Positions 16,828-48,217 of a stretch of 64,000 nucleotides of DNA are shown piece after piece. Source of the DNA: Sipunculus nudus (lineage: Eukaryota > Annelida > Sipuncula > Golfingiida > Sipunculidae); the NCBI GenBank assembly GCA_026874595.1, contig CM049307.1:93348330-93412329 (forward strand), read 5' to 3'. Made by a program: the position numbers and the translations under genes. Positions within the stretch are counted from its first letter, which is position 1. Each line of letters opens with the position of its first letter. The notes under the pieces are model-generated. The model made no database searches, was not told where the DNA came from, and was given only the letters and a program-made list of their open reading frames with translations.

Positions 16828-17106
16828 CTTAGCAATAGATTTGCCAAGTCAAATTAAACCCTTTGTATGTCGAAGACTCGTCTGACGAGAATGTGATGAA
16901 TATTTGCCAATTCAAATTAAAGCCTCTGTAAGCCGCAGACCCATCTGACGTGAATCTGATTAGTATTTGATTTCCAGTGAAATTAAAGGAGCCAGGCTTC
17001 CCACAGTCATCCAGTGAGGCGATCAGTCCCGCTGAGCTTGTCGCGCCGTTGTATATACTGACGAAATCATACAACTGTTCCAGGCAAAAATCGATGAACT
17101 GTATAC
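16828..17106 (-). CDS. CUB domain exon 2, copy A (terminal exon with stop)
   Basis: Second half of a CUB domain, a secreted or extracellular beta-sandwich module used for protein or glycan binding. The exon starts after TTTGTAG at 17107 and encodes IQFIDFCLEQLYDFVSIYNG, then LIASLDDCGKPGSFNFTG, then the last strands ending in FNLTWQIYC and a stop at 16829-16831. Visible CUB marks are F-x-x-F-x-LE, YDxVxIYNG, the DDCG cysteine and the final F-x-L-x-W. The exon is 63 nt longer than copy B because the last 21 residues are tandemly duplicated (RGFNLNWQI then KGFNLTWQI). The stop TAA lies just before a donor-like GTAAAG; copy B has CAA there. It is either the natural 3' end of the gene or a truncating mutation. 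Confidence 0.75.
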
Positions 17107-17494
17107 CTACAAACTAAATTGATAAATCAATATAGCTCAAACTGATGGCTGAATGTACATTTAATTAATAAATTCAAACTGAAAATTGATGGTATTTGGG
17201 CGTTTATAGAACGAAAACTTTATGCGATTGACAAATTGGTCTTATTCGATCAGAGTCGTAAGTTCCGTTATATATATATACCGCAAACGGAATCTTTATA
17301 ATGTTATTCCATTTACGGGGTGATAATCAAAAATTCGTGGTGATCTTTATTTCCAGATAGTCTTTAGGCCAGGTAAAAAGTAGCGTAATTATACCGTATA
17401 CTCGGTATATATATTCGGTCAATAAGTATGCAAAGTATACATTAAAAAGTGACATAACTAATGTCGTGCTAGGACATATAAACCGATGTCCTAC

Positions 17495-17625
17495 GGTGTC
17501 ATTGTCGCCCGTTATACGGCATGTGCAGGAGTAGTCGTTGGGGTAGTCGTTGGGGTAGTTCGGAGAAGCTATCCAGCCGGAACTTTGGTCGCGGCAATCA
17601 ACAGCGTATGGTTGGAAACCACATG
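17495..17625 (-). CDS. CUB domain exon 1, copy A
   Basis: First half of a CUB domain. The acceptor TTGGCAG precedes 17625. The exon begins in phase 1 and encodes CGFQPYAVDCRDQSSGW, then IASPNYPNDYPNDYSC and ITGDNDT. The SPNYPNDYPN segment is the CUB signature, here with an extra PND. The position of the CUB Trp (C-x-W) is Cys in this copy (CTC rather than CAW as in copy B). The donor is GTAGGA at 17494. The exon ends in phase 0 while the next exon starts in phase 1, a one-base mismatch also present in copy B. Confidence 0.75.
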
Positions 17626-18555
17626 CTGCCAATGACAATTTCAATCAAAGTTACTTTTCAATTGTGTCACTATTCAATCTAACCGTCCATCAAGTTTCAT
17701 CGAACAAATTGGTTCTCATGATCTAGCCACCCATGGTGTGCTGGAGGCTCCTGCGAGTGCAGATGTGCCTCAAGAATACCCACATAATAAATGTTTGTTT
17801 TAAAAGGAAGCACTAACTAAAATTCTACCTGCCATGTTTCTCATCAATCAATTATTAATTGTACGGTCCAATCAACAATGTCTGTCCATGAACAATATGA
17901 ACACTCAGAAGATACGGGCTTATAGATTATTTTGTCATGTAACTCAATTAAAATGTTGCCATCTTTATACTCCGTTTAAGACACCAAAAGAAATAACCAG
18001 GAATTGACCCATTTTTTCTAAAGCTCTGGGACGATGATTTATGGAATGGATTATATATGGGATCATCGAATCCAGTTGTGATGTGAATAGTCATACTACA
18101 TATTGAAGTTTTTCTTTGATAAAGTATTAATTACAGTATCGCTTGATATTTATGAAGTTTATATATATATATATATGTTTGTGTGTGTATGTATATATAA
18201 GTCAAACCCAAGTTTTGTCTAAAAAATATAATTACTTTCATTCTCAGGGAAATGAAATATACGCTTTAACCAATGACCAAAGCTGTAATATTAAAGCTGC
18301 TCAAAAATACGCAGGCATTTTTTATTCGCTCGTTTCGGTTTGATAAATAATTTCCTGACAAGATAGAGACCTTCTAACCTGAATACTGTGACGAATTAGA
18401 TTTGTTTTGTTTTGAAACTATTTTAGATTGAATATTTTTTTTTTCTCATGAAAGACCCTCTGGTGTCCAATTAACATATAAGACCCTGTCGTCTCCAATT
18501 GACATGAATCAGGGAGTGATTAACTAGAGCTCAATACGCCATGAATCTTGCTTAC

Positions 18556-18615
18556 TTGTTGCCGCTGGAGTTGTGATTGGAGGCACGGAGGTGGCCGGTT
18601 TGGTCGTTGGGGCCA
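18556..18615 (-). pseudogene. Thr/Pro-rich linker exon, acceptor mutated
   Basis: A 60-nt unit encoding APTTKPATSVPPITTPAAT, with a good donor GTAAGC at 18555. The base pair where related exons have acceptor AG reads AA (CCACAA), so it is probably not spliced in as is. It lies between the 19.7-kb linker exon and CUB copy A. Thr/Pro-rich linkers of this sort are usually O-glycosylated stalks. Confidence 0.6.
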
Positions 18616-19179
18616 TTGTGGAATAATAATCATACCACAAAGTTTTATCAAACCCAAATGCCAATAGTCATTTATAGAAGTAGCCACTGGAGAAAAAAAT
18701 AGGAGATCATCTATGATTCAACACAACGCTATAATCATGTACGGAATTAATATCTCCAATTGTGATTATCCTCTTGTGCCCCGGAAATCCGGCTTTACTT
18801 TACATGCTTGATACGTCTTTTAGCTGCTTTTTTTAAATATTTGAACGAAACAAAATTAAATAAATCAAAAAATAAAATGCATCGGTCACAATGTATTGAA
18901 CCATTAATTATCATATCAACAGGATTCCTTTCTTCCCTTTACCTGATAAACAAGAGCAGCATTCTTTTTTATTTCATGTGCACAGATCTCCAAATAAACA
19001 AGGCGTATGTAATCATTACATAAATAAACTTCCCTCTGTGATCTTCAGATAATTACTTTAAAACATAATACATCATTCCATAGTTTCAGAGGGATCAATG
19101 TAAAGACGTGTTGCCATATTTTCTCTGTATATTCAAGGTTTAGAAACAACAGCAAGTTAGTAGTTCTACATATTTCTTT

Positions 19180-19480
19180 ATTGTACCCCGCTCCGCGAAT
19201 GTGGAGGACATTGATTTTGATTTGTCTATCTATCTCTGTCCGTCTGTCTGTCTGTCTCTCTGTCCGTCAGTCAGTTTTTTTCGTTTCCGGGCAATACCTT
19301 TCCTAATTTTTATCTGATCTCGTTCAAATTTGGATCAGTCTTTGCTCTCATACATACCAAAGTGCATCTGTTTAAGTCTCCACATGACATAATTTTTATT
19401 TTTAAGAAATTAACATGAATTGACAACAGACAAAAACAGTTTAGAATTTAAAAAAAAAAAAAACCTTGATATTGAATGAT
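19180..19480 (+). repeat. Dispersed repeat with (GTCT/GTCC)n tract
   Basis: TACCCCGCTCCGCGAATG leads into GTCTATCTATC/GTCCGTCTGTC simple sequence, then CTGATCTCGTTCAAATTTGG. A related layout (short unique head, GTCCGTCC tract, then a body mentioning 'caaaatt' blocks) is seen at 46172 onward. It is absent at the equivalent place in copy B (near 29290), so it looks inserted. Confidence 0.5.
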
Positions 19481-19728
19481 GACATTGAAATTGTAAGACA
19501 AAATATAATCAGGAAGCTTAGAAGGATCAGGAAAGCAACTTTAAAATCATAAACTTTGTCAGATATTTTTATGAAAATCACATGGAAGACAACACACCTA
19601 TCCACTCAATCGAAAATAATAATTATTGTTTTGTTTTAAAACGATTCCAACCTATATGGCTTCAACTAACATTAATCATGTACAGAGAGTGATCAACTAG
19701 CGCTAAATACCACATGTATCCTACATGC

Positions 19729-19788
19729 CAGTTGTTGCTGGAGTTGTGGTTTGAGCCACGGTAGATGTTGCTGTGATCGTTTGGGCCA
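19729..19788 (-). CDS. Thr-rich linker exon (60 nt, phase 1-1)
   Basis: The acceptor CCTACAG precedes 19788. The exon encodes AQTITATSTVAQTTTPATT (19 full codons, plus 2 nt at the start and 1 at the end), so it can be included or skipped without a frame change. Its closest relatives in the array use GTATGC as donor; here the intron begins GCATGT, a GC-AG type donor or a decayed one. No cysteines; likely an O-glycosylated linker upstream of CUB copy A. Confidence 0.6.
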
Positions 19789-20720
19789 CTGTAGGATAAT
19801 ATACATACAACAATCTTTAATTAAAAACAGTTGCCGATAATCACTTATAGCATTACTATCCTCAATTCGTTTTCTCTATCCTATCCCAAGAAAACAACAA
19901 TCAATAGAAAGCTCAGAAATTAGCATCCATTTATATTTCCAAAACTGTTGTAGCAATGGTTGTAGCCTTCATGATCTAATTAAATAATTAGAGAATGCTA
20001 ATATTAAAATAACCCACCTACGTATGTAAACATAGGCTTAAATATCATGTTTTAAAAGAAATGAAACGTGAAAAATTCTGGTCATTTGTAAAAAGCATAT
20101 TTATATTTTGCATTCAAAAGAATTAAAGAGCTTGTAAACATATTCATTATACTACATATGATTGAGTACCTATTTGTGTAAGTTTTCCTATGCAATCAAA
20201 TTCAGAACTTTTAATATGTTTTCATTTTTGTTAGAATTGACTTTTCATAATATAAGGAAACCTGGATTTGAGGGAAGGTAAAATCAAAATTAGTGCCAAA
20301 TTACTGATTTAGCCCTTGCAAAAAAACTGACTAAAAATTGAGGAGGCCTTCTGCTCTAGCCCTATTCTAGCAGACCAAACAGCTATTTGGCCCTTTTCGG
20401 TCAATTTTACGATGTCCTAGCTAATATATTAGAGAACCTATGCAGTAATGAAGAGGATTATATGACGAGTGAAACATGAAAAGTGACAAGAGGTTTTTTT
20501 TTCAATATAAAACGAAAGGATTAAAATATCTCGTTTCATGTTTGGTAGCAGAATTTAAATAAAATAATCTCACTTTACATTATTTAATACTGAAGTGTTT
20601 GTTAATCCACTGAAGGAATGACAACGGATGTTGGGGTCATCGCCAAAGCTTACAATTTCCAAACTGGATCGTATGCAGGGGGGTAGGCTCTTGTTTTTAT
20701 ATCAGTTTTTATATCAGTTA

Positions 20721-22489
20721 TTCTGATAAATGTAAATTCTAGTCTTATCAATAGACAATTTAAGATTCCATACCCACAAAAAATGTAAAAAATAAATGTA
20801 TTTCTTTTCATAGCAGACAAAACAATTGCCACCATTTTTAATTGCATTTCTTTACATTCCTTAATTTAAAATGTTCTTCCTTTAGCATTATTTTTTTAAT
20901 AAGATGGATTCTTATACATTAACATTGTTAACTGTGATACGTTATAAACTAAATATTATTTATTTTACAATTTTTTTCAATATTTTTTGTAAATTATTAA
21001 ATTGAGAAAGAATTTAACTTTTGTTTAATATTTTGATCAATTCTTACATATAAAAATAATATTTACATATTTTTACACGTACAATTGGTATAACCCGACT
21101 TGGTCGTTCTTTTGTATCAGCTTTGCATTGCTTTTGTGGTGGCCTCTATCACAGATTAAAAAATCGCTCTCTGGTTCCATGCAAAAGTTTAATAACTGTG
21201 CCAACTGATGCGGCTTTACTGACACTCTGGGTAACATGGTTTTTAATAAAAATGAGATCCAGTGAAAGTACGGCTAATTGACTTACCATTGAGGAATGCT
21301 GCAAATACAATATTGTGTGACACATTTGCGAGCCAGAGAGATGTTCAGACAAATGTTCTGAAGCTAATTTAAAGAAGAACTGAGCAAATGTCCACATAGG
21401 AGGTGATTGTATATTGTCGTTGCATAGTCATTAGTAAATTAGATTTGTATGACAGAAGACAAGACAATAAAATGAAATATAGAGGAATGGATAGAAGAAT
21501 TGGAATCACTTCTCAGTGCCTGAAAGAAAGGATCACTATCGCTATATGGAAGAATAATACAGGGTAAAAACCTCATGTCTATGTTTCATAATTCCAATGA
21601 TTATAAATTAAAAGCTAAAAAAAAACATAAGGACTGTTTTAATTTGAATGATCGACCAACAAAAAAAAAACTGTACATATAGTATGACGGTTAAAATCCG
21701 TCCGAACAAAGGATTTAGATAAGCAAAATATTGCCTTGAAAATGATCTAGGAAATACGTACTTTCACTGCTACAGTACCCACCCATAAATCACTAATCAA
21801 CTCGAACTTCAATAATAAATTCATGTTATTTCGAGTATTGTTGCGAAGAAGACTTATCTTGCCAGATGCAGTCCCAATGTTCTATAAGAATATTCTAAAG
21901 TCATTTAAACCGTTCAAAGAAAAGATGTCCCCCACAAAAATGGGAGACGTATGAACTGAATTGATTTGGTATAACCCATGCATGTCAATACCAAATAACA
22001 TGATCCGATTTATTCGGACTGGTAAAATACTGGGATATTTTTGGTGATGACATTTTGTGAATGAGTGTGAAACACGGAACATATTGTGTTAATAAACATG
22101 CAGGTGTATGTCATAAGAATGTGTATGTATATAATTGATTCTTTAAACTATAAATATGCACGGTGCATGGCAGTTTTTTTTTTGTTTTTTTTTTTATTGG
22201 TGGAATTCTGATTAGCATGTATCAATACAATAAATACTTGTCATGCCAATGATCAAATGAACAACAGAACAAATTAATTACATGTGATGCGTTCTGAGGC
22301 AAAAAGAGAAAAACAAATGTTTTGTAGCCATCAAGTGCCCCTCCGGGTCCAAGGTTTAAATGTGAAGGTTTTAAAGGTAGCAAAGAATAATAAATCATAC
22401 GCTAAATCACACTGCGTCATCTTAACCACGCAATCTCGAGTACGAAACAAGTCTTAAAATTCTATTTATCTGGTCTTCCATATTATATG
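20721..22489. other. No gene recognised
   Basis: AT-rich sequence with short open frames only. A minus-strand frame at 21149-21397 shows no recognisable motif. A 26-codon plus-strand stretch near 21487 (RRIGITSQCLKERITIAIWK) faintly resembles the N-terminus of Harbinger-type nucleases but has no continuation. Confidence 0.5.
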
Positions 22490-26100: not shown

Positions 26101-26205
26101 TCGTAGAATCCAGCTGTGATGGTCAGGCTAGAAAACAATTAATTATTTTTTATTTTTATTTTTTAAGTATTTATTACCGCTTCTCTGAACTATAAAAATA
26201 CAATA

Positions 26206-26214
26206 TATATAAAA

Positions 26215-26289
<75 letters not shown>
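26206..26289. repeat. (AC)n(AT)n microsatellite
   Basis: CA dinucleotides run straight into TA dinucleotides. Copy A has only a short TA run here (about 16538-16560). Confidence 0.95.
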
Positions 26290-26546: not shown

Positions 26547-26762
26547 CTTGGTCATAGGTCTGCCAAGTCAAATTAAAGCCTCTGAAGGCCGCAGATCCAT
26601 CTGACATGAATCTGATTAGTATTTGATTTCCAGTGGAATTAAAGGAACCAGGGTTCCCACAGTCATCCAGTGAGGCGATCAGTTCCGCTGAGATTGTCGC
26701 GTCGTTGTATATACGGACGTGATCATACCACTGTTCTAAGCAAAAATCGACGAATTGTATAC
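26547..26762 (-). CDS. CUB domain exon 2, copy B
   Basis: The acceptor TTTGTAG precedes 26762 and the donor GTAAGC follows at 26546. It encodes IQFVDFCLEQWYDHVRIYND, LIASLDDCGNPGSFNSTG, and RFMSDGSAAFRGFNLTW followed by QTYDQ, ending in phase 1. CUB marks are F-x-x-F-x-LE, YDHVRIYND, DDCG and the terminal F-x-L-x-W. At 216 nt it is the normal-length version; copy A carries a 63-nt internal duplication. Because it ends with a donor rather than a stop, it probably splices to a Thr-rich exon downstream on the minus strand, possibly 19729-19788. Confidence 0.75.
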
Positions 26763-26914
26763 CTACAAACTAAATTGTTAAATCAATATAGCTCAAGCTA
26801 GTGGGTGAATGTAAGTATAATCAATATTATCATAATAAACAATTCGATGGTATTAAACGTATAAAAATGGATTTTTTTTTTATTGACAAATTGGGCTAAT
26901 TCGATCACAGTCTC

Positions 26915-27065: not shown

Positions 27066-27196
27066 GGTGTTAATGTCGCCCGTTATACGCCATGCGCAAT
27101 CGTAGTTGTTTGGGTAGTACTTGGGGTAATCCGGAGAAGTCATCCAACCGGAACGTTTCTGGCGGATATCAACAGGGTATGGTTGGAAACCACATG
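27066..27196 (-). CDS. CUB domain exon 1, copy B
   Basis: The acceptor TTGGCAG precedes 27196 and the donor GTAAGA follows at 27065. It encodes CGFQPYPVDIRQKRSGW, MTSPDYPKYYPNNYDCAW and RITGDINT. The CUB marks SP(D/N)YPxxYPNN and C-x-W are intact, and joined to exon 2 the spacing from W to F-x-LE is the usual one for CUB. The join is however one nucleotide out of frame with these splice sites. A second possible donor (GTATAA after TGGC, 27089) keeps the frame but removes nine residues of the domain. Confidence 0.75.
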
Positions 27197-28687: not shown

Positions 28688-28723
28688 TTGTTGTCGCCAG
28701 AGTTGAGATTGGAGCCATGGAGA
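28688..28723 (-). CDS. 36-nt Ser/Thr linker microexon (phase 1-1)
   Basis: The acceptor TTCTACAG precedes 28723 and the donor GTAAGT follows at 28687; both are strong. It encodes SMAPISTLATT. It corresponds to the linker unit at 18556-18615 but lacks the first 24 nt and keeps the acceptor that unit has lost. It lies immediately upstream of CUB copy B in minus-strand order and is phase-compatible with CUB exon 1. Confidence 0.65.
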
Positions 28724-30289: not shown

Positions 30290-31180
30290 TTTATCATGCC
30301 TGGATATGCAGAACCAGGTATGATTCTGCCATACTTCCATGGGGCCATCCGTCAGGAAGTCCCGCAACTTGCATTAATCTTTACATTTATAGAAGGGTCT
30401 AGATATTTCTTGCTTGGAATCAAGAAAAGCCCAGCTAAAACTCCCCAGACACCCATAATTTGTCCTAGGATGTAAAACCATTACTTCGAACATACAACAT
30501 TCAATCATTCTGACTGATTAAGGGCATTGAACAAGTACATGTTGAAAAATGTGAGAATATTACGAAATATTTTGAAGTTGGCTTTGATAATATTTATTTA
30601 CAATTTATTCCCATTAGCAAGTTTAACCTGCATGTCTTATGAGAAAAGACCTATCAGTTAAGAGCATTTACCTTTATTAACTTGGAAAAGTGAAAATTAT
30701 AAAACATCTAAGGGACATAATGCAGTCATGGAATCGTTGACGTTATTAGCTACTAAAATATAAATGTAAATGTTGTCAGTTCTTTTTTATGAATATCAGA
30801 CAACAAATAATAAAGACAACAGACCAGTCGACTTGATCGTAAAGAACCATATTTGTTTCTTTTTAACAATTCCCGCATATATATCTTTAACAAACATGAA
30901 ACAGAGTGTGATTTATTTGAGATTAATACGACATGTATTCTGCATACCTGGTGTTGCTGGAGTGGTTGTTTGAGCCACGGTAGTGGTCGGTTTGGTCGTT
31001 CGGGTTCCTGTAGAATAAATGCACAAAGTAATGTTCAATTAATCAAATCGCCAATAATCATTTATAGTTATAGTATCTCTAATTCGTTTTCTCTATTCGT
31101 TCAAGAGAAAATGCAAATCAAAAGAAAACACATTCGACTGACAATACAATGGATTATACTAATAAACGTTCATATCACTT
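30290..31180. repeat. Partial copy R0 of the R segment
   Basis: Colinear with 39780-40000 joined to 40440-40920, and with 33500-33990. It includes CATCCGTCAGGA, CCCAGCTAAA, the TGTTGAAAAATGTGAGAATATTACG block and the Thr-rich exon at its end. It lacks the sequence corresponding to about 40020-40440. Confidence 0.8.
30948..31007 (-). CDS. Thr-rich linker exon (60 nt, phase 1-1)
   Basis: The acceptor TTCTACAG precedes 31007 and the donor GTATGC follows at 30947. It encodes TRTTKPTTTVAQTTTPATP. Splice sites, length and phase are the same as the exon at 40855-40914, its closest paralogue. Likely part of an O-glycosylated stalk. Confidence 0.7.
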
Positions 31181-31404
31181 GCTGAAGTAGTGGTTTGAGC
31201 CACGGTTGTGGTCGGTTTGGTCTTTTGGGTTCCTGTAGAATAAATGCACAAAGTAATGTTTAATTAATCAAATCGCCAATAATCATTTATAGCAATAGTA
31301 TTTCAAATTCGGTTTCTCTATTCGTTCAAGAGAAAATGCAAATGAAAAAACACATTAGACTGAAAATACAACGGATTATACTAATAAACGTTCATATCAC
31401 TTGA
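31003..31404. repeat. Tandem duplication of exon plus intron (~227 bp unit)
   Basis: The ~180 bp after GGTTCCTGTAGAATAAATGC recurs at once (31003-31182 and 31229-31404), nearly identical. The duplication carries the Thr-rich exon with it and so produced the extra exon at 31179-31232. Confidence 0.9.
31179..31232 (-). CDS. Thr-rich linker exon (54 nt, phase 1-1)
   Basis: The acceptor TTCTACAG precedes 31232. The exon encodes TQKTKPTTTVAQTTTSA and ends at a duplication junction where GTGATA serves as possible donor, keeping phase 1. It is two codons shorter than its neighbour at 30948-31007. The donor was created by the join of the tandem duplication, so its use is uncertain. Confidence 0.55.
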
Positions 31405-32236: not shown

Positions 32237-32296
32237 CAATTGTCCTTAGAGTTGTGGTTGGGGCCACGGTGGTGGCTCGAGTTGTTGCAGGGGCAA
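32237..32296 (-). CDS. Thr-rich linker exon (60 nt, phase 1-1)
   Basis: The acceptor ATTCTTCAG precedes 32296 and the donor GTAAGG follows at 32236. It encodes APATTRATTVAPTTTLRTI with the same 60-nt length and phase 1-1 structure as the others, but is the most diverged intact member. Confidence 0.7.
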
Positions 32297-33924: not shown

Positions 33925-33985
33925 CTAATGTTGCTGGAGTGGTAGACTGAGCCACGGTAGTGGTCGGTTTTTTTCATTTGGGTCC
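33925..33985 (-). pseudogene. Thr-rich linker exon with 1-nt frameshift
   Basis: Splice sites TTCAG and GTATGC are intact, but an extra A in the ATGAAAAAAACC stretch makes the unit 61 nt and shifts the frame (TQMKKTDHYRG). The R2 counterpart at 40855-40914 is intact. Confidence 0.75.
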
Positions 33986-36328: not shown

Positions 36329-37124
36329 AAATGGTCCGTTCATAAGTTTTAAATATTTCAATTTTTGCAAGAAAGTTGCATTGACATTAATACATGTAAA
36401 TTCGAGAATCCAGGGAACAAATTAAAGATATCCAATAGGTTAAATCTCTTAAAAAGAATGTAAATATGTAACACTATCATCTGGATTGGTCAAGTATTTG
36501 TAAATAAAACTACCCACATTTACTCAAGCCCGGAAGACAAAATGGTCTCAAAATTGTATAAATCTAAAAGGAGCCTCATTTTTAAAAGAATAAAAGTGCA
36601 ATAATGTTTCAATGATGATTTTCCAAAAATTATCTGGTGTGGTAATTTTTTTAAGACCTTTGGGATAAACATAAACATTATTTTGTGGAACTGTCTAGTT
36701 CTTACATTAACGTAATTTAAGAGAGACCATTACAGAGTTAAAAACACACAAGACATAGTCCATTTGGGTAGCATTGGTCGTGGTTCAACTGAGAATCAAT
36801 CTGTGCCGCCTTTTTCCTCTAACTTCTGAGCGAAAATAGCAACTGTATACAATTGATTTATCCGAAATGCATATCGGATATTGTTAATTTACAATTATTT
36901 CTTGCAAAAAAGGCAAATAACAGATAGTTTCTTAAGAGAATATCTTGAAAATCCCTTTTTACCTGTTCTTACTTGCGGATACAACACTGAAAATTAGCGT
37001 TGTGTGAAATAGTAGAAAAGACAAATACCTAAATTTACACGAAACGGGAAACCAAATCGTCCCAAACTTGTATGAATCAAACTTGAGAGTCAAGATAGTT
37101 AAATATTTTATTTAAAATTCTAAC

Positions 37125-37163
37125 CAGTTGTTGTCAGAGGAGGCGCGGCAGTGTTTGGCGGCT
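37125..37163 (-). CDS. Pro/Thr-rich linker exon (39 nt, phase 1-1)
   Basis: The acceptor CATTCAG precedes 37163 and the donor GTTAGA follows at 37124. It encodes PPNTAAPPLTTT. It is phase 1-1 like the rest of the array. The R2 copy (42375-42413) keeps splice sites and frame with SPNTAAPPPITT. Confidence 0.6.
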
Positions 37164-37664
37164 CTGAATGAGGATAAAGGTGTAATTGTATCCCTTTAAA
37201 TAATAAAAAAATGCAAAAAAAAATGTCTTCCTTGGTAGTTATTCCTTGATAATTTAAAGATAAATGCTATTTCAACAGAGACCAGCAGCGGGTTAATAAA
37301 ACCGTAAGACACAGTTCATCACAGTCTCGCCTCTTTTATTCATCCTTTTTCATCCTCCAACCTCGCCTACCTCCATTAAATGACAAAGTCCTTTTTTCCC
37401 TATTACTTATTAACCTCGTTCATTTACCAACCTCAGTATCCGCCATCCGCAAGGAGTTTTTTACCCTAATGATACGCCTACTTCCTGATTCCAACTTAAG
37501 ACAAGTCGGGAATATAAGTGAAGCCGGTTTGTTATCGCTCGGGCTGAGCTGCCGCGTCTGTGTTTACAACATGTCATGCTTCACTGCTTATGGATCAGGT
37601 ACCCGGTGCCACTAATTAATCAATGACTTAACATCCTTGAGTTGTTTGGAGACAGCTGTCAACA

Positions 37665-38252
37665 GCCGAGTGACCAGGGTTGATTTCACACCTATAGTTG
37701 TTTGGTAAAGTGTCATTTAATAAGGTCAACCACACGAGTAGTTTTGAGTAATTTTTGGTAACACGGGGGCTCAAAGACTTGATTGCCCTGAATGACGCAG
37801 TTTGCTTGACGGAGCGTGCCTGGGATTCCATATGCAGCTTCATCATCGGCAATTGTTGGAAACACAATGGCGTTATATCCAGGTGTGTCCAGCCAAATGA
37901 ACAGATCGGCAAGACGGTCAAGAAGCAAACAGTATCGCATACCGACCAGAACATCGGAACGGCACAGCCTTTGAGCGATCAGTATATCATGGAAACAGTG
38001 ACAGGCAGCGATGGTAGAGCAAGTCCAAACTGTTCCCCTAAAGAAATGCACCCCCCCCCCGCTCCCTCCGCCCATATCCGCCGAAATCCTCAAGGCCATA
38101 CAGGCCGTCTTGAAATATTTCGAGAGCTCCAACTACAGCGAACAGTCCGATATTGACGCATAGGCAGGGTGGAACAAAGAATAATAGCTCTTGTGTCACA
38201 AGGTGGCAAACAGTGCTCCATTACGGAATTCTTTGGGGGCAGACTCGGATGA
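37665..38252 (+). pseudogene. pogo/Tigger-type transposase C-terminal remnant, copy 1
   Basis: Plus-strand remnant of a pogo/Tigger-family DDE transposase. SDQG at 37669-37680 matches the M-D-Q-G motif that includes the third catalytic Asp. After a stop and a frameshift, RAWDSICSFIIGNCWKHNGV matches the conserved A-W-D-x-I...I-x-N-C-W-x-H-A-G block. The C-terminus has KQCSITEFFG, like the Q-x-x-I-x-x-F-F tail found in this family. Internal stops and frame breaks make it inactive. The N-terminal DNA-binding part is absent. It lies antisense to the exon array. Confidence 0.75.
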
Positions 38253-40854
38253 AAGTGAAACGGCACAAGGATGACAATGGAGAATTTTATATTTTGACCG
38301 GATATGTAATGCATGTATATATATGTAAATAAATTGTGCACACTATTTTTCTGTTTTTATTTGTAATTTTGTTCATTCATAGTAAATAAATAAATACAAT
38401 TTGTACACTGTTTTAATTTTTTTTTATGTAGCTAGTTAAAGATGAGCATAATAAATGCATGGCCCGATTTATGCTACCCTTCCAATCCTATTTTGCCCCC
38501 GTATCAACCGCCACCCTTGCTTACCGGCAAAATTTCACCCGGACTCAAGGTGGGCGAATGGAAGAGATTAGACTGTTATATTGTTAAAAAAATGAAACCT
38601 GAACTTCCGGTCACTTGGAAAAGTCAAGCATCTATTTTAATTTGATCATTTTGCATTCCAAATAGCTCAAAATTGTTTTAAGTTTATTTTCACATAATAA
38701 ATTTTACTACGTTTGATTGAGTACTTGTTTGTGTATTTTTTTTTTTTTTTGTAATCTCACCTGGAATTTTTAACGTGCTTTCATATTTGTTAGAATTTAT
38801 TATTCACAATATAAGAAAACATGGGCTCAAGGGAAGGTTAAATCATAATTAGTGCCAAGTTGCTTACTTAGTCCTTGCATACAAGTGACAGGATATTGAG
38901 GCCTCCTGCTGTGCACCTCTATACTAGCAAACTTAACAGCTAGCTGGCCCTTTTGGGTAAATTTCACAATGTACAAGCTAATATATTGGAGAACCTATAT
39001 TGTAAAAGCAGAGAAATACATGAGGAGGGAGTAATAAAAGGTAACAACAGGTTTCAATGAAAACGTGAGGATTTCAATATTAAGTTTTACAGGGTTTTAA
39101 AGAAATTTACAAAAATCTGATTTTTACGGTGATGGAATAACGACGGACGCCGGATTCATCGCCAAAGCCAATCATTGCCAAATGGAATCGTATAATCGGA
39201 TAGGATCTTATTTTTGTGTCAGCTGACCTTCAACCATGCTGAGATATGCAGAGACTATATTTGCTTCTGTTATCCTTCCACCTAGCAAACCGTCAGAAAT
39301 TCTCACAACTAACCAAGCGATCACATATTCATAAAAAAATGCACAATATAAGATAACTTGGATTCAAGGGAAGGTAAAATCAGAATCATTGCCAAGTTGC
39401 TGAATTAGCCTTTGAAGACAATTAACAGGGAATAGAGGTATCATTTTTTCTGGCAAATCAAACAGCTAGCTAGCCTTTACGGGATAATCTTTTTGAGGTC
39501 CTAGCCAATGCATTAGAGAACACGTATAGAGGATAACAGATGATTATATGAAGAGGGAGGAATAAAAAGTGACACCTGGTTATCAATAAAAAAATCAAGG
39601 ATTAAAATATCTCGTTTCATGTTTGCTCGGAAAATTTACAAAAACAAATAGGGTGAATTTCCATTTTTTTAAAGTGCCTGTTAATAGACTGAAAAACTGA
39701 AAAACCCTTAAGCTATTTATTAATTAATTGTATCGTATGTATAAGGATGGGCTTCTTATTTTATGTCAGCTGATTTTTTTTATCATGCCGATATGCTGAA
39801 ACAGGTCTAATTTTGTCATACCTCCATCGGCCATCCGTCAGGAGTTCCCTCAGCTTGCATTAATCGTAACATGTTTAACGAGATATAGAAAGTTCTTGCT
39901 TTAAATCAAGACAAGCCCAGCTAAATCTCCCCAGACACGCAAAATGTACTCTAGCATGTATAACACATGTAAAACAATGCCTTCGAACACACAAAATTTA
40001 ACCATTCTGATTGATTAAGGCAGTTGAACAAAACCAACGATTCCCGTTTACCATGGGATCTCACACTCAAAAATGTACTTCACTACAAAAATAGTACCTC
40101 TCGGCATCTTAAATATATAATAAAAAATACCCCAAAATATGTTATATTGTAATGTCGCTACAGGTGTGATAATTTCGCTGTAATCAGTTAATTAAACGTG
40201 ATGATTTATATTAAAGCTTTAATTTCTCAATACTTAAAGCATGTATGATAAATAAATTTTGGATTTTTTTCTTAATTTACCATGCTTGTTCTTACTTGAT
40301 AACATGTTTAAGACACATTTCTGGACTGTACCTAACTAAAAGGACATTACCTATTGCCTATTATACAGTCCTTCTTCCATCGTGATTGCTCTACAACTTC
40401 ATCCGAACAGCTCTCTGTTCAGAGCAAAGATATTTCTAACTTTGGAGCACATGTTGAAAAATCTGAGAATATTACGAAATATTATCAAGTTGACTTTGAT
40501 AATATTAATTATAATTTATTCCCATTAGCAACATATACCTGCATGTCTAACGATAAATGAACTATCAGGTAAGAGCATTGACCTTTATTAACTTGGAAAA
40601 GTTAAAAATTATAAAAAAAATCTAAGGGAAATAATGTAGTCATGGAATCTTGAATTAATCAGGTTATAAGTTTCCAAATCATAAATGTTTTCAGTTCTTT
40701 TTTTATAAATTTAAAAGGGAAGGACAACAGACCAATCGACTTAGTCGTAAAGAACCATATTTGTTTCTTTTATAATCATTCCAGCATATATCTTTAACAA
40801 ACATGAAACAGAGTGTGATTAATTTAAGCTCGACACGACATGTATTCTGCATAC

Positions 40855-40914
40855 CTGTTGTTGCTGGAGTGGTGGACTGAGCCACGGTAGTGGTCGGTTT
40901 GGTCATTTGGGTCC
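40855..40914 (-). CDS. Thr-rich linker exon (60 nt, phase 1-1)
   Basis: The acceptor TTCTACAG precedes 40914 and the donor GTATGC follows at 40854. It encodes TQMTKPTTTVAQSTTPATT. This is the intact paralogue of the frameshifted R1 exon and a good consensus for the array. Confidence 0.75.
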
Positions 40915-41164
40915 CTGTAGAATTAATGCACAAAATAATGTTCAATTAAACAAATTGCCAATAATCAGTTATAGCAATAGTATTTCTAATTCGTTTTTCT
41001 ATTTTCGTTCCAGACAAAACGCATATTCTCAATAAATGTATCAAGCAACCAGGCCAAAATTTGATCAAGAAATAGATAATTTCGGAAGGGGTTGATTTCT
41101 GAAAATGAATTATGATATACTTGAAGAGTTTCCTTGGAAACACATGAACATTTTATTTCAAGAT

Positions 41165-41230
41165 TGTTTTTGGAATTTTTGTTGTAGAAACGGCTGATGC
41201 TTTCGTTCTCCATCGTGCCATTGTAGAAAA
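41165..41230 (-). pseudogene. 'TMA' exon-like unit, member 3
   Basis: Encodes TMARWRTKASAVSTTKIPK then TILK and a stop; R2 counterpart of 34225-34300. Confidence 0.4.
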
Positions 41231-41419
41231 CCTTTGAAAATATTGTAATAAAATTTGGAAAAAACAATACGATAAACGTATAAATGATCTTCCCTTTTGA
41301 TATAATATAACATAAAATCCGTAAAAAAACAGGAAAGACCTTTTCAACCAAGTGTTAACTACACAACTGGCGTAATCAGAGAATTCTGAACAATGTCTTA
41401 ATCAATGTATCCTGCTCTC

Positions 41420-41479
41420 AGGTCGTTGCAGGGGATACGGTAAGAGCAATGATGCTTTCTGATTTAGTTGTCTTGGTTG
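41420..41479 (-). pseudogene. Thr-rich linker exon, donor lost (R2)
   Basis: Same 60-nt unit and same GA-for-GT donor lesion as 34490-34549. Confidence 0.6.
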
Positions 41480-42374
41480 CTTACGGATAATATAAATCCA
41501 ACCATGTGTAAAAAAAAAAAACTGAATTTTTGTACAAATTGTCACGTATAAAAGTAATATCCCAACACTTCAATTATTCGTCTTTAAAAATAATATTCAC
41601 CTGTTAGTGCTTATACCGCTTTACCATAGTATTGTGACGAAATAGTTTAATTTAGCCTTGAAAACATCTGATAAAATGATCCGTTCATAAGTTTTAAATA
41701 TTTCAATTTTTGCAAGAAAGTTGCATTGACATTAATACATGTAAATTCGAGAATCCAGGGAACAAATAAAAGATATCCAATAGGTTAAATCTCTTAAAAA
41801 GAATGTGAATATGTAACACTATCATCTGGATTGGTAAAGTATTTGTAAATATGATAGTTTTGATGGTTTGCCAAAAATTATTAGGTGAGGTAATGTTTTT
41901 AAGACTTTTTGAGATAAACATAAACATGATTCTGTGGAACTGTCTAGTTCTTACATTCACGTAATTTAAGAGAGACTATTACTGAGTTAAGAACACACAA
42001 GACATTGTCCATTTGGGTAGCATTGGTCGTGGTTCAACTGAGAATCAATCTGTGCCACCTTTTTCCTCTAACTTCTGAGCGAAAATAGCAACAGTATCCA
42101 ATTGATTTATCCGAAATGCATATCGGATATTGTTAATTTACAATTATTTCTTGCAAAAAATGCAAATAACAGATATTTTCTTAAGAGAATATCTTGAAAA
42201 TCCCTTTTCACCTGTTCTTACTTGCGGATACAATACTGAAAACTAGCGTTCTGTAAAGTAGTAGAAAAGACAAATACCTAAATTTACATGAAACTGGAAA
42301 ACAAAATCGTCCCAAAATTGTATGAATCAAACTTGAGAGTCAAGATAGTTAAATATTTTATTTAAAATTCTAAC

Positions 42375-42413
42375 CAGTTGTTATCGGAGGAGGCGCGGCA
42401 GTGTTTGGAGACT
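42375..42413 (-). CDS. Pro/Thr-rich linker exon (39 nt, phase 1-1), R2
   Basis: The acceptor CATTCAG precedes 42413 and the donor GTTAGA follows at 42374. It encodes SPNTAAPPPITT. The splice signals are identical to the R1 copy. Confidence 0.6.
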
Positions 42414-42934
42414 CTGAATGAGGATAAAAGGTGTAATTGTATCCCTTTAAATAATAAAAATTGCCAAAAAAATGTCTTCCTTGGTAATTATTCCTTCAAA
42501 ATTTTAAGATAAATGCTATTTACACTGATATATTTTAACAGAAACCAGCAGCGGGTTAATAAAACCGTAAGACACAGTTCATTACTGTCTCACCTCTTCC
42601 TTTCACCCTTTTTCATCCGCCAACCTCGCCTACCTCCAACAAATGACAAAGTCCTATTTTCCTTACTACTTATTTACCTCGTTCATTTACCAATCTCAGT
42701 ATAAGCCATCCGCCAGGAGTTTTTTACCCTAATCATACGCCGACTTCCTGATTCCAACTTAAGACAAGTCGGGAATATTACTGAAGCCGGTGTGTTATCG
42801 CTCGGGCTGAGCTGACCTGCCGCGTCTGTGTTTTCAACATGTCACGCTTCACTGCTTATGGATCAGATACCCGGTGCCACTAATTAATCAATGACTTAAC
42901 ATCCTTGAGTTGTTTGGGGACAGCTGTCAACAGC

Positions 42935-43514
42935 TGAGTGACCAGTGTTGATTTCACACCTAGAGTTGTTTGGTAAAGTGTCATTTAATAAGGTCAACCA
43001 CACGAGTAGTTTTGAGTAATTTTTGGTAACACGGGGGCTCAAAGACTTGATTGCCCTTAATGACGCAGTTTGCTGGACGGAGCGTGCCTGGGATTCCATA
43101 TGCAGGACCATCATCGGCAACTGTTGGGAACACACTGGCGTTATATCCAGGAGTGTCCAGCCAAATGGACAGATCGGCAAGACGGTCAAGAAGCAAACAG
43201 TATCTCATACCGAACAGAACATCGGAACGGCACAGCCTTTGAGCGATCAGTATATCACGGAAACAGTGACAGGCAGCGATGGTAGAGCAAGTCCAACCTG
43301 TTCCCCTAAAGAAATGCCCCCCCCCCCCTCCGCCCATATCGGCCGAAGTCCGGAATGCCATGAAGACCGTCTTGAAGTATTTCGAGAGCTCCAACTACAG
43401 CGAACAGTCCGATATTGACGCACAGACAGGGTGGACCAAAGAATAATAGCTCTTCTGTCACAAGGTGGCAAACAGTGCTCCATTACGGAATTCTTTGGGG
43501 GCAGACTCGGATAA
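42935..43514 (+). pseudogene. pogo/Tigger-type transposase C-terminal remnant, copy 2
   Basis: Same fragment as at 37665-38252, duplicated with the R segment. It has SDQC in place of SDQG, RAWDSICRTIIGNCWEHTGV, and the KQCSITEFFG tail. Shared stops show it was dead before the duplication. Confidence 0.75.
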
Positions 43515-45377
43515 AAGTGAAACGGCACAAGGATGACAATGGAGAATTTTATATTTTGACCGGATATGTAATACATGTATATGTACGTAAATAAATTGTA
43601 CACACTATTTTTCTGTCTTTATTTGTAATTTTTTTCTTTCAATGTGAATAAATAAATACAATTTGAACACAGTATTCAATTTTTTTTATCGAAGCTAGTT
43701 AAAGATGAGCATAATAATGCATGGCCCGATTTATGCTTCCCCTTCCCATCCTATTTGGACCCCTGATCAACCGCCACCCTTGCTTACCGCCAAAAATTCA
43801 CCCGGACTCAAGGTGGGCGAATGGTAGAGATTGGACTGTTACATTGTTAAATAAATGAAACCTGAACTTCCGGTCACTTAGAAAAGTCAGGCTTCCGTTT
43901 TAATAAGATCATTTTGCATTCAAAATATCTAAAAATTGTTTTTAGTTTATTTAGGCAAAAATAAATTTTACTACGTTTGATTGAGTACTTGTTTGTGTAA
44001 TTTTTTTTTTTTTTGTAATCACACCTGGAACTTTTAACGTGCTTTCATATTTGTTAGAATTGATTATTCACAATATAAGAAAATATGGGCTCAAGGGAAG
44101 GTTAAATCAGAATAAGTGCCAAGTTGCTTACTAAGTCCTTGCATACAACTGACAGGAAATTGAGGAGACCTCCTGCTGTGTACCTCTATACTAGCAAACT
44201 TAACAGCTAGCTGGCCCTCTTGGGTCAATTTCACAATGTACAAGCTAACATATTGGAGAACCTATATCATAAAAGCAGGGAAATACATGACGAGGTTGTC
44301 ATGAAAAGTGACAACAGGTTTCAATGAAAACTTAATGATTGTATAGGGGTTTAAAGAAATTTACAAAAATCTGATTTTTACGGTGATGGAATAACGACGG
44401 ACGCCGGATTCATCGCCAAAGCCAATCATTGCCAAATGGAATCGTATAATCGGATAGGATCTTATTTTTGTGTCAGCTGACCTTCAATCATGCTGAGATA
44501 TGCAGAGACTATATTTGCTTTTGTTATCCTTCCACCTAGCAAACCGTCAGAAATTCTCACAACTAACCAAGCGATCACATATTCATAAAAAATGCACAAT
44601 ATAAGATAACTTGGATTCAAGGGAAGGTAAAATCAGAATCATTGCCAAGTTGCTGAATTAGCCTTTGAAGACAATTAAATGGGAATAGAGGTACCATTTT
44701 TTTCTAGCACACCAAACAGCTAGCTAGCCTTTACGGGATAATCTTTTTGAGGTCCTAGCCAATACATTAGATAACACGTATAGAGGAAAACAGATGATTT
44801 AATGAAGAGGGAGGAATGAAAGGTGACAACTGGTTATCAATAAAAAAATCAAGGATTAAAATATCTCGTTTCATGTTTGCTCGGAAAATTTACAAAAACA
44901 AATAGGGTGAATTTACATTTTTTTAAAGTGCCTGCTAATAGACTGAAAAACTTTGTATCGTATGTATAAGGATGGGCTTTTTATTTTATGTCAGCTGATT
45001 TTTTTATTATGCCGATATGCTGAAACAGGTCTAATTTTGTCATACCTCCATCGGGCCATCCGTCAGGAGTTCCCTCAGCTTGCATTAATCGTAACATGTT
45101 TAACGAGATATAGAAAGTTCTTGCTTTAAATCAAGACAAGCCCAGCTAAATCTCCCCAGACACGCAAAATGTACTCTAGCATGTATAACACGTGTAAAAC
45201 AATGCCTTCGAACACACAAAATTTAACAATTCTGATTGAATAAGGCAGTTGAACAAAACCAACGATTCCCGTTTACCATGGGATCTCACACTCAAAAATG
45301 TATTTCACTACAAACGTAGTACCTCTCGGCATCCAAAATATATAATAAAAAATACCCCAAAACATGTAATATTATAA

Positions 45378-45592
45378 TGTCGCTACAGGTGTGATAATTT
45401 CGCTGTAATCAGTTAATTAAACGTGATGATTTATATTAAAGCTTTAATTTCTCAATACTTAAAGCATGTATGATAAATAAATTTTGGATTTTTTTTTAAT
45501 TTACCATCCTTGTTCCTACTTGATAACATGTTTAAGACACATTTCTGGACTGTGCCTAACTAAAAGGACATTGCCTATTGCCTATTAGAAAA
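45378..45592. repeat. Truncated third R copy, R3
   Basis: Begins with the same CTACAGGTGTGATAATTTCG block as R1 and R2, and stops matching after GGACATTGCCTATTGCCTATTA. It then joins unrelated sequence (about 45593-45700). That breakpoint probably marks a junction of the R amplification. Confidence 0.85.
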
Positions 45593-46016
45593 AATCCCAC
45601 AAAAGAAAATAACTTGTCCTAGAAGACCGCACCGCCGATACGTGTGCCAAATTTGGAGAGTCAGATCAGAGCGGAAGTAGGCAAACAATGGTCTAAGAAA
45701 CTGCACATTAATTATATACATGTCTGAATACAATGCCCGCTAATCATTTGTCACACTGTTATATCCAATTCTTTCTGCTTAACTCTGGGCTAAAAAAGAA
45801 TAGGCAATTCGTCCGGGCTTCAGGTAGCCATTCAGTATTTCGTAGATCATTTCGTTTTGAACCCTAGTATAGTAACGAACAAGAATACTTTTTGCCTGAA
45901 ACCATTAAGACCACACATGAAAACATTTCTTAGTATCGATAAGGCACTACTGTCTTCAAATTGGCAGAATTAGAGAATGCTCAACAAGTGCTTAATACAT
46001 GTATCCTGCCTACATC

Positions 46017-46071
46017 TTTTGCAGGAGTTGTGGTTTGAGCTTGGAGTTGTGGTGGCTTCTTTGATCAAAAT
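46017..46071 (-). pseudogene. Decayed Thr-rich exon-like unit
   Basis: Related to 32527-32564: TCAAAG, then codons for ATTTPSS, then a frame break into QTTTPAKD, followed by GTAGGC. No usable frame. Confidence 0.35.
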
Positions 46072-46171
46072 TATCTAGTTCGATCGTCCCATTTTAAAAT
46101 TCATATACGAAAACCCTGAAAACCTACTGTCTCGATGGGCCTGTATCTTTGCAAATCTTTTACTTAACAGT

Positions 46172-47465
46172 TTTTTAGCTCAGCTGACTATAAGTCAGTG
46201 AACTATAGTCGTGGTCTATTGTCCGTCCGTCCGTCCGTCCACCCGTCTGTCCCTCCGTCTGTCTGTCCGTCTGTCAGTTCGTTAGACTAGCACGTGTTTG
46301 AAACCGTTAGACCTACGAATCCAAAATTCGGCATAATGTTAGATGTCCCCAAAATTTCTCACCATACCTTGGGTCAAGACGACTTTGTTCCTTTGATATA
46401 TTTCGGAAAAACCTCAGATTTCCTTTAAAAACACATTATCACACTGTTTTTCTTAATATTTGCCAGAAGAAATCTCCTAGATATATCCTATATACATGCA
46501 AGAAATTAAGTTCATTTATATATTTTCTTTAAGTTATGGGCCCAAACATAATTGAGCTTGTAAAAAACCGGAAAAATATTTACATGAAACATTTTGAAAC
46601 TAGAGATTATTTTCCAAAGTATATAACTTTGTCTTATTGAGATTCAATTGTTTACCCAAAATTTGATCTGAATTTTTTATTTTTTTTATTATTAGCATAA
46701 AATAAAATCAGTATCTTGAATCTTGCCCAACTTTGACTATGGTACGTTTGTTTCCTGTGAGTACTATTTATTTAATTTTCACAACATGAAAACATAAGTA
46801 TGTAATTTGTTTAAACCTGAAATTTTAAAATAAAAGCTTGAAAATTAGGCTAGTTATTGATTTTTTCTTGAGGCCCCGTTGTAATCATTTGCTTTGTCCA
46901 GATGCAAGGTCCCACTCCTGGTCACTGGAAGTCAGCTAAGCCAGGTTTTCTGATTTGTTACAGTCACATTAGGAGATCACCTGCTGTGACAGTTGTACTG
47001 TTATCCTCGTATCATCAACCCGATCCCCACCCCCATCCCCTGCAAACCCAACCCTTCAAGTATTATACAATAATTGTTATTGTTTTCACTGTATCCGCTT
47101 AATTGTAATGCTGTTTCCACTGCATTTTTAAATCCAAAAAAATATATTCAATTAAACAAATGTTTAACTACTGAAATGTCAACAGTTATCCAAAAAGCAA
47201 ATTAATGATCATGGTAAGGGACCAGATCGTTTGTTCACAAACTGCTCACATGCTTCAGTTTCAACATTAGGAAACACATGATCAGGTCACAAAATATGAT
47301 TTGCAACAATTTCTTGCTCATCAATACAAACCAATCATATAGACCAACCATGGCTTATATGATACCTCTTCCTCTTACACTTTATCTCCATTTGATATTA
47401 TTCAAGATTTTTACCTTCAAGGTCAACTTAAGCTGTACAATGTGACCCATGGGTCCCTTGTTTTT
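46172..47465 (+). mobile_element. ~1.3-kb dispersed element with GTCCGTCC head
   Basis: The related segment near 32665 has the empty site: TTAACAGTTTT runs into the CAGCTAGTTCAATTATGC block. Here TTAACAGTTTT is followed by 1.3 kb beginning TAGCTCAGCTGACTATAAG, a GTCCGTCC/GTCTGTCC tract, and a body ending AATGTGACCCATGGGTCCC TTG. Then the shared block resumes. The first GTCC tract and 'aaattt' body resemble the repeat at 19180. No coding capacity was seen; non-autonomous. Confidence 0.75.
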
Positions 47466-47764
47466 AAGTTCAGCTAGTTCAGCTATACAACTAAAAAGAG
47501 GGTTGTTTAATAATCAGAATATGACCTAAAAAGAATCATCCGTTTGGTATATATTCCCTGTTAATCACCGAACAAAGAGGATTAGGATATCAGAAAATTA
47601 ATTTAATATACTGACAAGCATTCGTCAATACAAATGTTCTTTATTGCCTCTTCCTGCGTAAATGTAACAAGTAACTATGCCAAATTAAACCCCGATATTG
47701 ATAAATACAGAAGGAATTGATTTAAAAAAAGGAAATGATGAAAGACATGAATTTAAGGGAGTAG

Positions 47765-47855
47765 TTGGAAACACATGAACATTTTCTTAACCGGAATCTT
47801 TGGAACTTTCGTTTTAGAAACAGCTGGAGCTGACGTTCTTTTTGGTGCCATTGTA
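47765..47855 (-). pseudogene. 'TMA' exon-like unit, member 4
   Basis: Encodes TMAPKRTSAPAVSKTKVPK then IPVKKMFMC. It follows CCTACAATGG with no AG acceptor. It is just downstream (minus-strand sense) of the PAN-like exon, and is the least damaged of the four copies by reading frame. Confidence 0.4.
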
Positions 47856-47959
47856 GGTAAGTGGGTAGAAGTAATAGTAGTAGTAGCAGTTGTATATCAT
47901 AAGAAATAATATAAACAGTGGTGGTATTTCAGAACTTTGTGACAAATTAACGTGCTCAC

Positions 47960-48217
47960 CGAATCGATTGATGTATGCTGTGGACTCTGCCATAAATTGG
48001 ACATCAAGAACTGGAGACAAGAGAAGTTCACAGGTCCCGTTGTTGAAGGCGTTTAGAGCAGGGCATGCTGGCAGCTGATTGCATTGCAACAAACATTCCA
48101 TTGGCATGGTGCCGCACCGTGGCTGTTTCATTTCGATTAGGTTTGTTCGTGTGGCCAAAGCTCTCGATTCCTTTCGTCGGTTGTAATGCCGGCCTGTTGT
48201 AGTCATCGCAAGTGTGT
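47960..48217 (-). CDS. PAN/Apple-like domain exon (258 nt, phase 1-1)
   Basis: The acceptor TTCCATAG precedes 48217 and the donor GTGAGC follows at 47959. The 86-codon exon encodes TLAMTTTGRHYNRRKESRAL, then CGTMPMECLLQCNQLPACPA, LNAFNNGTCELLLSP and a tail ending in INRF. The cysteine pattern C...C-x-x-x-C...C-x-A-x-x-F-x-x-G-x-C-x-LL resembles PAN/Apple modules of molluscan secreted proteins, which bind proteins or carbohydrates. One potential N-glycosylation site (NGT) is visible. The exon is the most 5' recognisable one on the minus strand. No signal peptide is seen in it, so the first exon lies further upstream, toward or beyond the satellite. Confidence 0.65.

Follow-up and report, generated by a model that had tools for sequence, protein, structure and literature searches.

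The closest precedent for the exon arrays described below is the SmPoMuc genes of Schistosoma mansoni, with which they share recent tandem amplification (PMC2576457). The repeated SmPoMuc exon is 27 bp long and the protein is a mucin, whereas the exons reported here are 54 or 60 nt long, precede lectin or CUB domains in a large animal genome, and reach about 59 units in one array. The expression of SmPoMuc is proved by cDNAs, whereas the present arrays are described from genomic sequence. In both, a short in-frame exon lies in a tandemly repeated genomic unit, here of 909 bp or 5.3 kb.

The SID linkers of human DMBT1 (gp340, SALSA) are Ser/Thr-rich. This secreted recognition protein has copy-number-variable SRCR units, which are in-frame tandem units that vary by unequal exchange and are followed by CUB domains, and in these respects it resembles what we propose below (PMC4851238). 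In DMBT1, the variable unit comprises a binding domain plus its linker and unit number varies between individuals, whereas here the linker alone varies and the differences are seen between loci of one genome. Schistosome micro-exon genes (MEGs) offer a further likeness in their short symmetric exons over long introns and their secreted products, but MEG exons differ from one another, whereas here a single exon type has been amplified many times beside globular domains (PMC10526429). Expanded bivalve C-type-lectin repertoires also include many lectin genes with added domains, among them CUB, but in the part of the source cited here there is no mention of PAN combined with lectin or of arrayed stalk exons (PMC10140915). 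At the level of titles and abstract openings, we found no description of arrayed stalk exons preceding lectin or CUB exons, which is no proof of absence.

Results

Stalk exons in the window

On the minus strand of a 64,000-nucleotide stretch of the Sipunculus nudus genome, here called the window, eight homologous short exons, at 18.6 to 40.9 kb, are bracketed by a PAN-like exon and CUB domains of two exons each (Table 1). A profile built from the eight copies recovered all of them strongly (E values of 9.9e-15 to 1.1e-29), all on the minus strand, a partly circular result in that the same eight trained the profile. An independent rule-based scan of 16.0 to 48.5 kb (pyrimidine-rich acceptor, 24 to 99 nt, open phase-1 frame, T+P+S of at least 45%, donor of at least 6/8) gave five hits on the minus strand, one of them only 39 nt long and lying inside a 60-nt exon, and none on the plus strand; on 60 first-order Markov simulations the same scan averaged 0.03 hits, with no simulation reaching 4. 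Nine more matches to the profile in the window are weak (E values of 1.3e-4 to 4.8) and are remnants or chance. Scanning the window for Rfam families and tRNAs returned no match.

An earlier, sequence-only reading of this DNA had described at least seven intact Thr/Pro-rich exons of phase 1-1, spread over 29 kb of one strand between CUB and PAN-like modules. That description is right for the most part: the exon type, strand, phase, and CUB modules hold, but the intact count and the span do not. AG..GT sites together with an open phase 1-1 frame occur in five of the eight strong copies; the other three are broken, so seven was an overcount, and the strong copies cover 22 kb. The stalk copies in the window arose by segmental duplication, the duplicated segments being offset by about 5.25, 6.93, and 9.6 kb, and their common splice sites therefore reflect descent.

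Table 1. Positions of exons and of the duplicated unit within the window, listed from high to low coordinates.
Feature	Positions	Strand	Support and remarks
PAN-like exon, 258 nt, phase 1-1	47960..48217	-	Acceptor atag, donor gtgagc; PAN assignment weak
Duplication unit of ~5.25 kb, two copies (36613-40363, 41861-45587), 92% identical	36613..45587	-	
Stalk exon, 60 nt, intact	40855..40914	-	Profile, splice sites
Stalk exon copy, 61 nt, frameshifted	33925..33985	-	Profile, splice sites
Stalk exon, 60 nt, intact; internal AG permits 39-nt form	32237..32296	-	Profile, splice sites
Stalk exon, 54 nt, open, atypical donor gtgata	31179..31232	-	Splice sites
Stalk exon, 60 nt, intact	30948..31007	-	Profile, splice sites
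Stalk exon, 36 nt, sites intact	28688..28723	-	Profile, splice sites
CUB-A exon 1, phases 1 (start) and 0 (end)	27066..27196	-	Spliced model matches Pfam CUB, E 1.8e-19
CUB-A exon 2, phases 0 (start) and 1 (end)	26547..26769	-	C6 paralogue 91% identical
Stalk exon copy, 60 nt, open, donor gc not gt	19729..19788	-	C6 copy L059 has gt donor
Stalk exon copy, 60 nt, acceptor aa	18556..18615	-	C6 copy L061 has same defect, L060 does not
CUB-B exon 1, donor gtagga	17495..17625	-	Spliced model matches Pfam CUB, E 6.8e-21
CUB-B exon 2, 63-nt internal duplication, TAA end	16829..17113	-	

Stalk-exon arrays elsewhere in the genome

The stalk exons of the window form the weak margin of something larger. 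A 17-base signature of the stalk exon has 152 matches in the genome versus 3 for the reversed signature, which served as a control. Whole-genome queries gave 29 matches for one stalk exon and at least 40, among the matches listed, for another, together marking at least 63 distinct places.

Within this one genome, stalk-exon copy number differs strongly between loci. At C2:93.53-93.86 Mb, successive C-type-lectin terminal exons are preceded by at least 1, 17, 7, 1, 8, and 1 stalk copies. The 5.3-kb unit, traced through a 300-base piece, is present in eight copies at C6:15.92-15.96 Mb versus two in the window, and at C6:16.056-16.108 Mb about 59 units, every one of 909 bp, form a single array. 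All eight exons read in a 7-kb piece of this last array are 54 nt long, in frame, and intact, in units that are 95.7 to 99.9% identical, and each 909-bp unit apparently holds one such exon. Three stretches of C2:93.585-93.762 Mb contain 15 profile hits, 13 of which are intact 60-nt exons (one of the others is cut by the end of its stretch, and one is short and weak); among 21 further copies in short pieces, AG and GTA.. sites are present in 19, the donor is atypical in 1, and the acceptor is lost in 1.

The earlier interpretation is partly supported, in that the stalk exons do make up a modular family, with a symmetric structure (phase 1-1) in which any combination keeps the frame, and their copy number differs between loci. 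Since the exon sits in long arrays next to lectin or CUB domains, stalk length is probably set by exon copy number.

Selection on stalk and PAN-like exons

Mean dN/dS among stalk exons was 0.78 for 15 copies and 0.75 for 13 intact copies, and the three codon positions barely differed in divergence (0.228/0.197/0.231 and 0.141/0.118/0.136, respectively), so that protein-level constraint is weak. Constraint residue by residue is weak, and only the T/P/S/A composition of the stalk looks held: these residues make up 0.80 of the stalk exons versus 0.74 ± 0.017 in simulations, none of 2,000 reaching the observed value, in a comparison that covers full-length copies only and ignores shared descent. 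Divergence is 0.12 to 0.14 in the stalk exons versus 0.19 to 0.20 in the flanking intron.

A dN/dS near 1 across intact copies had been named beforehand as evidence against the sequence-only reading. The stalk exons come close to such a value, but the PAN-like exons show clear constraint in their substitution pattern, with dN/dS below 1 in all 36 pairs of nine paralogues (median, 0.32; the set leaves out paralogue L032, which is out of register). The eight pairs that include the window copy all fall at 0.20 to 0.53.

PAN-like exons and their lectin neighbors

For the window exon, the PAN identity proposed earlier is plausible only. Searched against Pfam, this exon had no match at an E value of ≤10 and hence none at the profile cut-off for a PAN/apple domain, but weak matches occur among its paralogues: of 26 compared, PAN_1 matches four, PAN_3 one, and PAN_4 one (best E value, 0.01). 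A PDB search with the exon gave no match, and one with the family profile gave a single unrelated chain (E value of 0.042). The AlphaFold model of the exon has a mean pLDDT of 52.5, too low for use of the fold. Inspection by eye of an alignment of 13 paralogues revealed no signal-peptide exon upstream of PAN.

The genome has 118 listed matches to the PAN-like exon family. Downstream of 30 of the 50 best PAN-like exons, a C-type-lectin terminal exon lies within 60 kb on the same strand and before the next PAN exon; the corresponding controls were 9 upstream on the same strand and 2 and 2 on the opposite strand. The lectin terminal exons of three genes, which are half-domains, matched PF00059 with E values of 8.2e-5 (23.7 bits), 6.8e-4 (20.8 bits), and 9.2e-4 (20.4 bits), one of them above the cut-off of 22.6. 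These neighbors lend weight to the earlier idea of a secreted recognition protein.

CUB exons

Four cysteines and the Trp of a C-x-W motif are characteristic of CUB domains. Both spliced models from the window match CUB (PF00431), at 70.5 and 75.1 bits, above the Pfam cut-off of 21.4. By eye, CUB-A has the four cysteines and the C-x-W Trp; in CUB-B, a Cys replaces the Trp and there is one additional Cys. The dN/dS of CUB exon 2 is below 1 in 14 of 15 pairs. A search of viral contigs found no relatives of CUB or PAN.

Discussion

We consider it fairly probable, judging from exon structure and neighborhood, that these exons encode a mucin-like stalk module in PAN/lectin/CUB recognition proteins, its length set by exon copy number and altered by tandem duplication. 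The short exons would be copies of one symmetric module of about 18 to 20 Thr/Pro/Ala-rich residues, probably an O-glycosylated spacer. This module would be common to a family of extracellular recognition genes, placed ahead of either a C-terminal C-type-lectin exon or CUB domains, and many relatives would start with a PAN-like exon. Because exon phase is 1 at both ends, the gain or loss of a genomic unit would alter stalk length without breaking the frame, and tandem duplication, by adding or removing units of about 0.9 to 6.5 kb, would allow fast changes in stalk length between paralogous genes. The window is probably a small, partly decayed locus with the order PAN, stalk, CUB-A, stalk, and CUB-B/C, and it is plausible that a single gene comprises its PAN, stalk, and CUB exons, presumably transcribed and spliced together. 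Alternative splicing, which the sequence-only reading had also raised, might conceivably be a mechanism.

An alternative hypothesis, to which we give a little less than an even chance, is that PAN and CUB lie in separate genes, the window PAN exon heading a PAN-lectin gene without its lectin exon and the stalk-CUB gene having another first exon. Among the 30 best PAN exons, 26 have a lectin exon within the next 60 kb, but the window copy has none until 84.7 kb on, past another PAN exon, and the C6 stalk-CUB paralogue has no PAN among the 118 matches listed. However, PAN and stalk/CUB exons in the window share a strand and have compatible phases, the nearest strong stalk exon is 7 kb downstream, and no other candidate head came up across 184 kb in a search limited to PAN, CUB, and stalk queries. 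The window might instead be a pseudogene graveyard of drifting, segmentally duplicated stalk-CUB fragments, with the working genes at C2:93.53-93.86 Mb and C6; we regard this as possible but on balance doubtful. It would account for the three broken stalk exons, for the stop codon of CUB-B, whose C6 counterpart is frameshifted, for CUB-C, which ends in QRR-stop and has lost its donor, and for dN/dS values of 0.77 between CUB-A and CUB-B and 0.80 over the domain between CUB-A and its C6 copy. Apart from the state of CUB-C, these features also count against our main reading, as do the donor gtagga of CUB-B, the dN/dS of 1.27 in exon 2 between CUB-A and its C6 copy, the weak protein-level constraint on the stalk exons, and the missing PAN matches, both at the C6 stalk-CUB locus among the 118 listed and for the window exon in Pfam. 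Yet CUB-A and the PAN exon are intact, the low dN/dS of the PAN-like exons extends to every pair with the window copy, the stops could be true C-terminal ends, and the CUB exons gained no frameshifting indel versus 17 in the flanking introns, from which they also differ in diverging less.

It is also conceivable, though quite unlikely in our view, that the exons are passengers in units that multiply as repeats with dispersed elements inside, the exon being neutral filler, spliced in but functionless. The 5.25-kb unit does contain a repeat dispersed genome-wide at 81 to 91% identity, and the stalk dN/dS would suit such filler, but nearly all array copies on C2 and C6 preserve splice sites, frame, and length, and the stalk exons have diverged less than the flanking intron.

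Extending the stalk-module reading, we speculate that one amplified exon (at least 150 copies, perhaps several hundred) could serve a lectin/CUB recognition family as an interchangeable ruler. Unit number would set the reach from the cell surface or matrix, unequal exchange would vary that number between individuals, and skipping of symmetric exons would add isoforms, so that the presentation of binding domains, not the binding sites, would be diversified; taken as a whole, this proposal is rather unlikely.

Recognition diversity in invertebrates is usually sought in binding domains; here, it is the spacer that multiplies. With arrays that range from 1 to about 59 copies next to lectin and CUB exons, this single exon type would, if expressed, offer a clean natural series for the effect of stalk length. 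The near-identical arrays also lend themselves to testing directly whether copy number varies between individuals. At C2:93.585-93.610 Mb, five copies are 99.3 to 100% identical over 301 bases, and seven C6 copies are 96.2 to 100% identical.

Stalk exons across the genome

The most striking part of the stalk exon family, the short Thr/Pro-rich phase 1-1 exons, lies well outside the window, in an array at C6:16055650-16108356 (C1, C2, C6, C11 and C17 are contigs of the Sipunculus nudus genome; the window is C2:93348330-93412329). Among the listed matches to a 17-base stalk signature, at least 48 fall in this tandem array, spaced about 909 bases or small multiples apart. At 909 bp per unit, the array could accommodate about 59 units, each apparently with one 54-nt stalk exon. 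In the piece that we read (C6:16076001-16083000), seven units were 95.7 to 99.9% identical, and all eight exons read were 54 nt long and in frame, with good splice sites.

Searches covered 1,426,538,692 bases in 153 contigs. A 163-base query spanning one stalk exon matched 29 places and a query with another copy at least 40 (40 scored among 329 candidates), for at least 63 distinct places combined. Allowing at most one mismatch, the signature had 113 forward and 39 reverse matches, most of which were not read as exons, versus 1 and 2 for the reversed pattern used as a control. A 9-kb piece at C6:16.134 Mb contained nine stalk profile matches. At C6:15.92-15.96 Mb, a 300-base piece taken from the 5.25-kb unit of the window occurs eight times in succession, against twice in the window itself; the spacing is about 5.3 kb, with one step of 4.3 kb. 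Seven of the C6 stalk exons are 96.2 to 100% identical across 341 bases, and five at C2:93.585-93.610 Mb are 99.3 to 100% identical across 301 bases, near-identity which indicates that amplification is recent, provided that the assembly is correct. The 300-base piece (window 38055-38354) recurs as a dispersed repeat on many chromosomes (81 to 91% identity), and it travels inside stalk exon units.

Gene layout in the window

Features of the window and its left flank
Feature	Position	Strand	Remark
PAN-like exon	47960-48217	-	5'-most of window series
Stalk exon homologues (8 clear)	40.9, 34.0, 32.3, 31.2, 31.0, 28.7, 19.8, 18.6 kb	-	
CUB-A, two exons	27196-27066 + 26769-26547	-	between sixth and seventh stalk homologues
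CUB-B, two exons	17625-17495 + 17113-16829	-	downstream of eighth stalk homologue
CUB-C (third CUB), open	5.5-6.2 kb past window left edge		
Duplication pair	36.6-40.4 kb vs 41.9-45.6 kb		92%
Duplication pair	33.2-34.7 kb vs 40.1-41.7 kb		93%
Duplication pair, in pieces	16.2-20.7 kb vs 25.8-30.3 kb		68-83%

A rule-based exon scan gave five hits on the minus strand (one nested) and none on the plus strand, with a mean of 0.03 in 60 simulations; the set thus exceeds chance. The sequence-only reading had counted at least seven intact linker exons over 29 kb, which is too many, as flanking AG and GT plus an open frame occur in five of the eight homologues. A profile scan returned eight strong matches in the window, the same copies that had trained the profile.

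Each CUB domain begins and ends in phase 1, whereas its two exons meet in phase 0; CUB-C has a stop where the other CUBs carry a donor. Self-comparison of the window revealed nested segmental duplications, the most diverged of which contains a stalk exon and a CUB jointly. CUB-B exon 2 carries a 63-nt in-frame duplication (window 16839-16969) in common with its counterpart at C6:15975789, which additionally has a frameshift.

Neighbors of the stalk exons

We surveyed all 79 lectin-exon matches and the best 50 of 118 PAN matches. For 30 of these 50 PAN exons, a lectin terminal exon follows on the same strand no more than 60 kb downstream and ahead of the next PAN exon; the controls gave 9 upstream on the same strand and 2 and 2 on the opposite strand. 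The lectin label comes from half-domain Pfam matches, one of three of which was over the Pfam cut-off. At C2:93.53-93.86 Mb, stalk runs of at least 1, 17, 7, 1, 8, and 1 copies precede lectin exons (about 4, 17, 7, 2, 8, and 3 when unread signature sites are included), as do two copies at C6:17.49 Mb and one at C2:97.85 Mb. In two places, the window and C6:15.87-15.98 Mb, it is CUB exons that follow the stalk exons. Downstream of three copies at C2:92.60 Mb, and of four at C6:16.06-16.13 Mb, neither a lectin nor a CUB match was found nearby.

Elsewhere, a frameshifted lectin terminal exon (L019:3009-3380, minus strand, in a fetched genome piece) lies downstream of a truncated PAN exon, and the two are probably a dead PAN-lectin gene. 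CUB exons also form large clusters at C6:25.26-25.45 Mb, C11:28.6-28.8 Mb, C1:50.7-50.9 Mb, and C17:22.1-22.2 Mb, where most are split at a profile position similar to that of the window CUBs.

Constraint and the status of the window locus

Among nine PAN paralogues, dN/dS was below 1 in 36 of 36 pairs (median, 0.32; range, 0.20 to 0.53). For CUB exon 2 it was below 1 in 14 of 15 pairs (0.25 to 1.27), the highest value being that of CUB-A and its C6 copy, which have 11 differences; over whole domains it was 0.77 for CUB-A versus CUB-B and 1.08 for the C6 copy of CUB-A versus CUB-B. Stalk exons gave 0.78 (15 copies) or 0.75 (13 copies selected as intact), diverge by 0.12 to 0.14 versus 0.19 to 0.20 in introns, and are biased toward T, P, S, and A relative to a simulation that ignores descent. 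These values fit a spacer in which composition outweighs sequence, and they also fit weak constraint.

The window may hold a working PAN-stalk-CUB gene. It may instead be a decaying relic, as the broken stalk exons, the stop in CUB-B and a dN/dS of 0.77 to 0.80 at CUB-A would suggest, but the CUB-A and PAN exons are intact, and the CUB exons have no frameshifting indels versus 17 in the flanking introns. The window PAN exon may also belong to a different gene, because it is not followed by a lectin exon, as 26 of the 30 best PAN exons are.

Proposed mechanism and comparison with known systems

The unit structure, phases, recent copies and neighbors were all observed. In the most likely mechanism, each genomic unit contributes one symmetric stalk exon, and therefore unequal exchange between adjacent units, using their hundreds to thousands of bases of homology, would add or remove units and shift the stalk by 18 to 20 residues with the frame preserved, possibly as a polymorphism. 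If spliced and secreted, the product would combine a head domain, which is PAN-like in many of the genes, with a stiff and probably O-glycosylated stalk, and would terminate in a lectin or CUB part with a presumed binding role.

The SmPoMuc genes of Schistosoma mansoni use the same genomic device, with repeats of roughly 1 kb, each with a 27-bp exon, in up to about 20 copies (PMC2576457). DMBT1, a secreted, CUB-containing recognition protein, is described as having in-frame units that vary in copy number (PMC4851238). Among the titles and abstract openings listed by literature searches, we found no description of this combination, an amplified linker exon adjoining lectin and CUB ends in which one array reaches about 59 units.

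Other features of the window

An open frame at 13121-13495 (plus strand) had no Pfam match above the cut-off; by eye, it resembles the first open frame of a LINE. Upstream of the PAN exon, a TATA-like block (about 48480-48520), conserved in an alignment of 13 paralogues, is a possible promoter. From 48900 to 64000, and on into the adjoining fetched pieces L009-L010, runs a higher-order tandem repeat whose units, about 1.8 kb long, are made of pieces of about 60 bases, and similar short repeats are also found upstream of other PAN exons.
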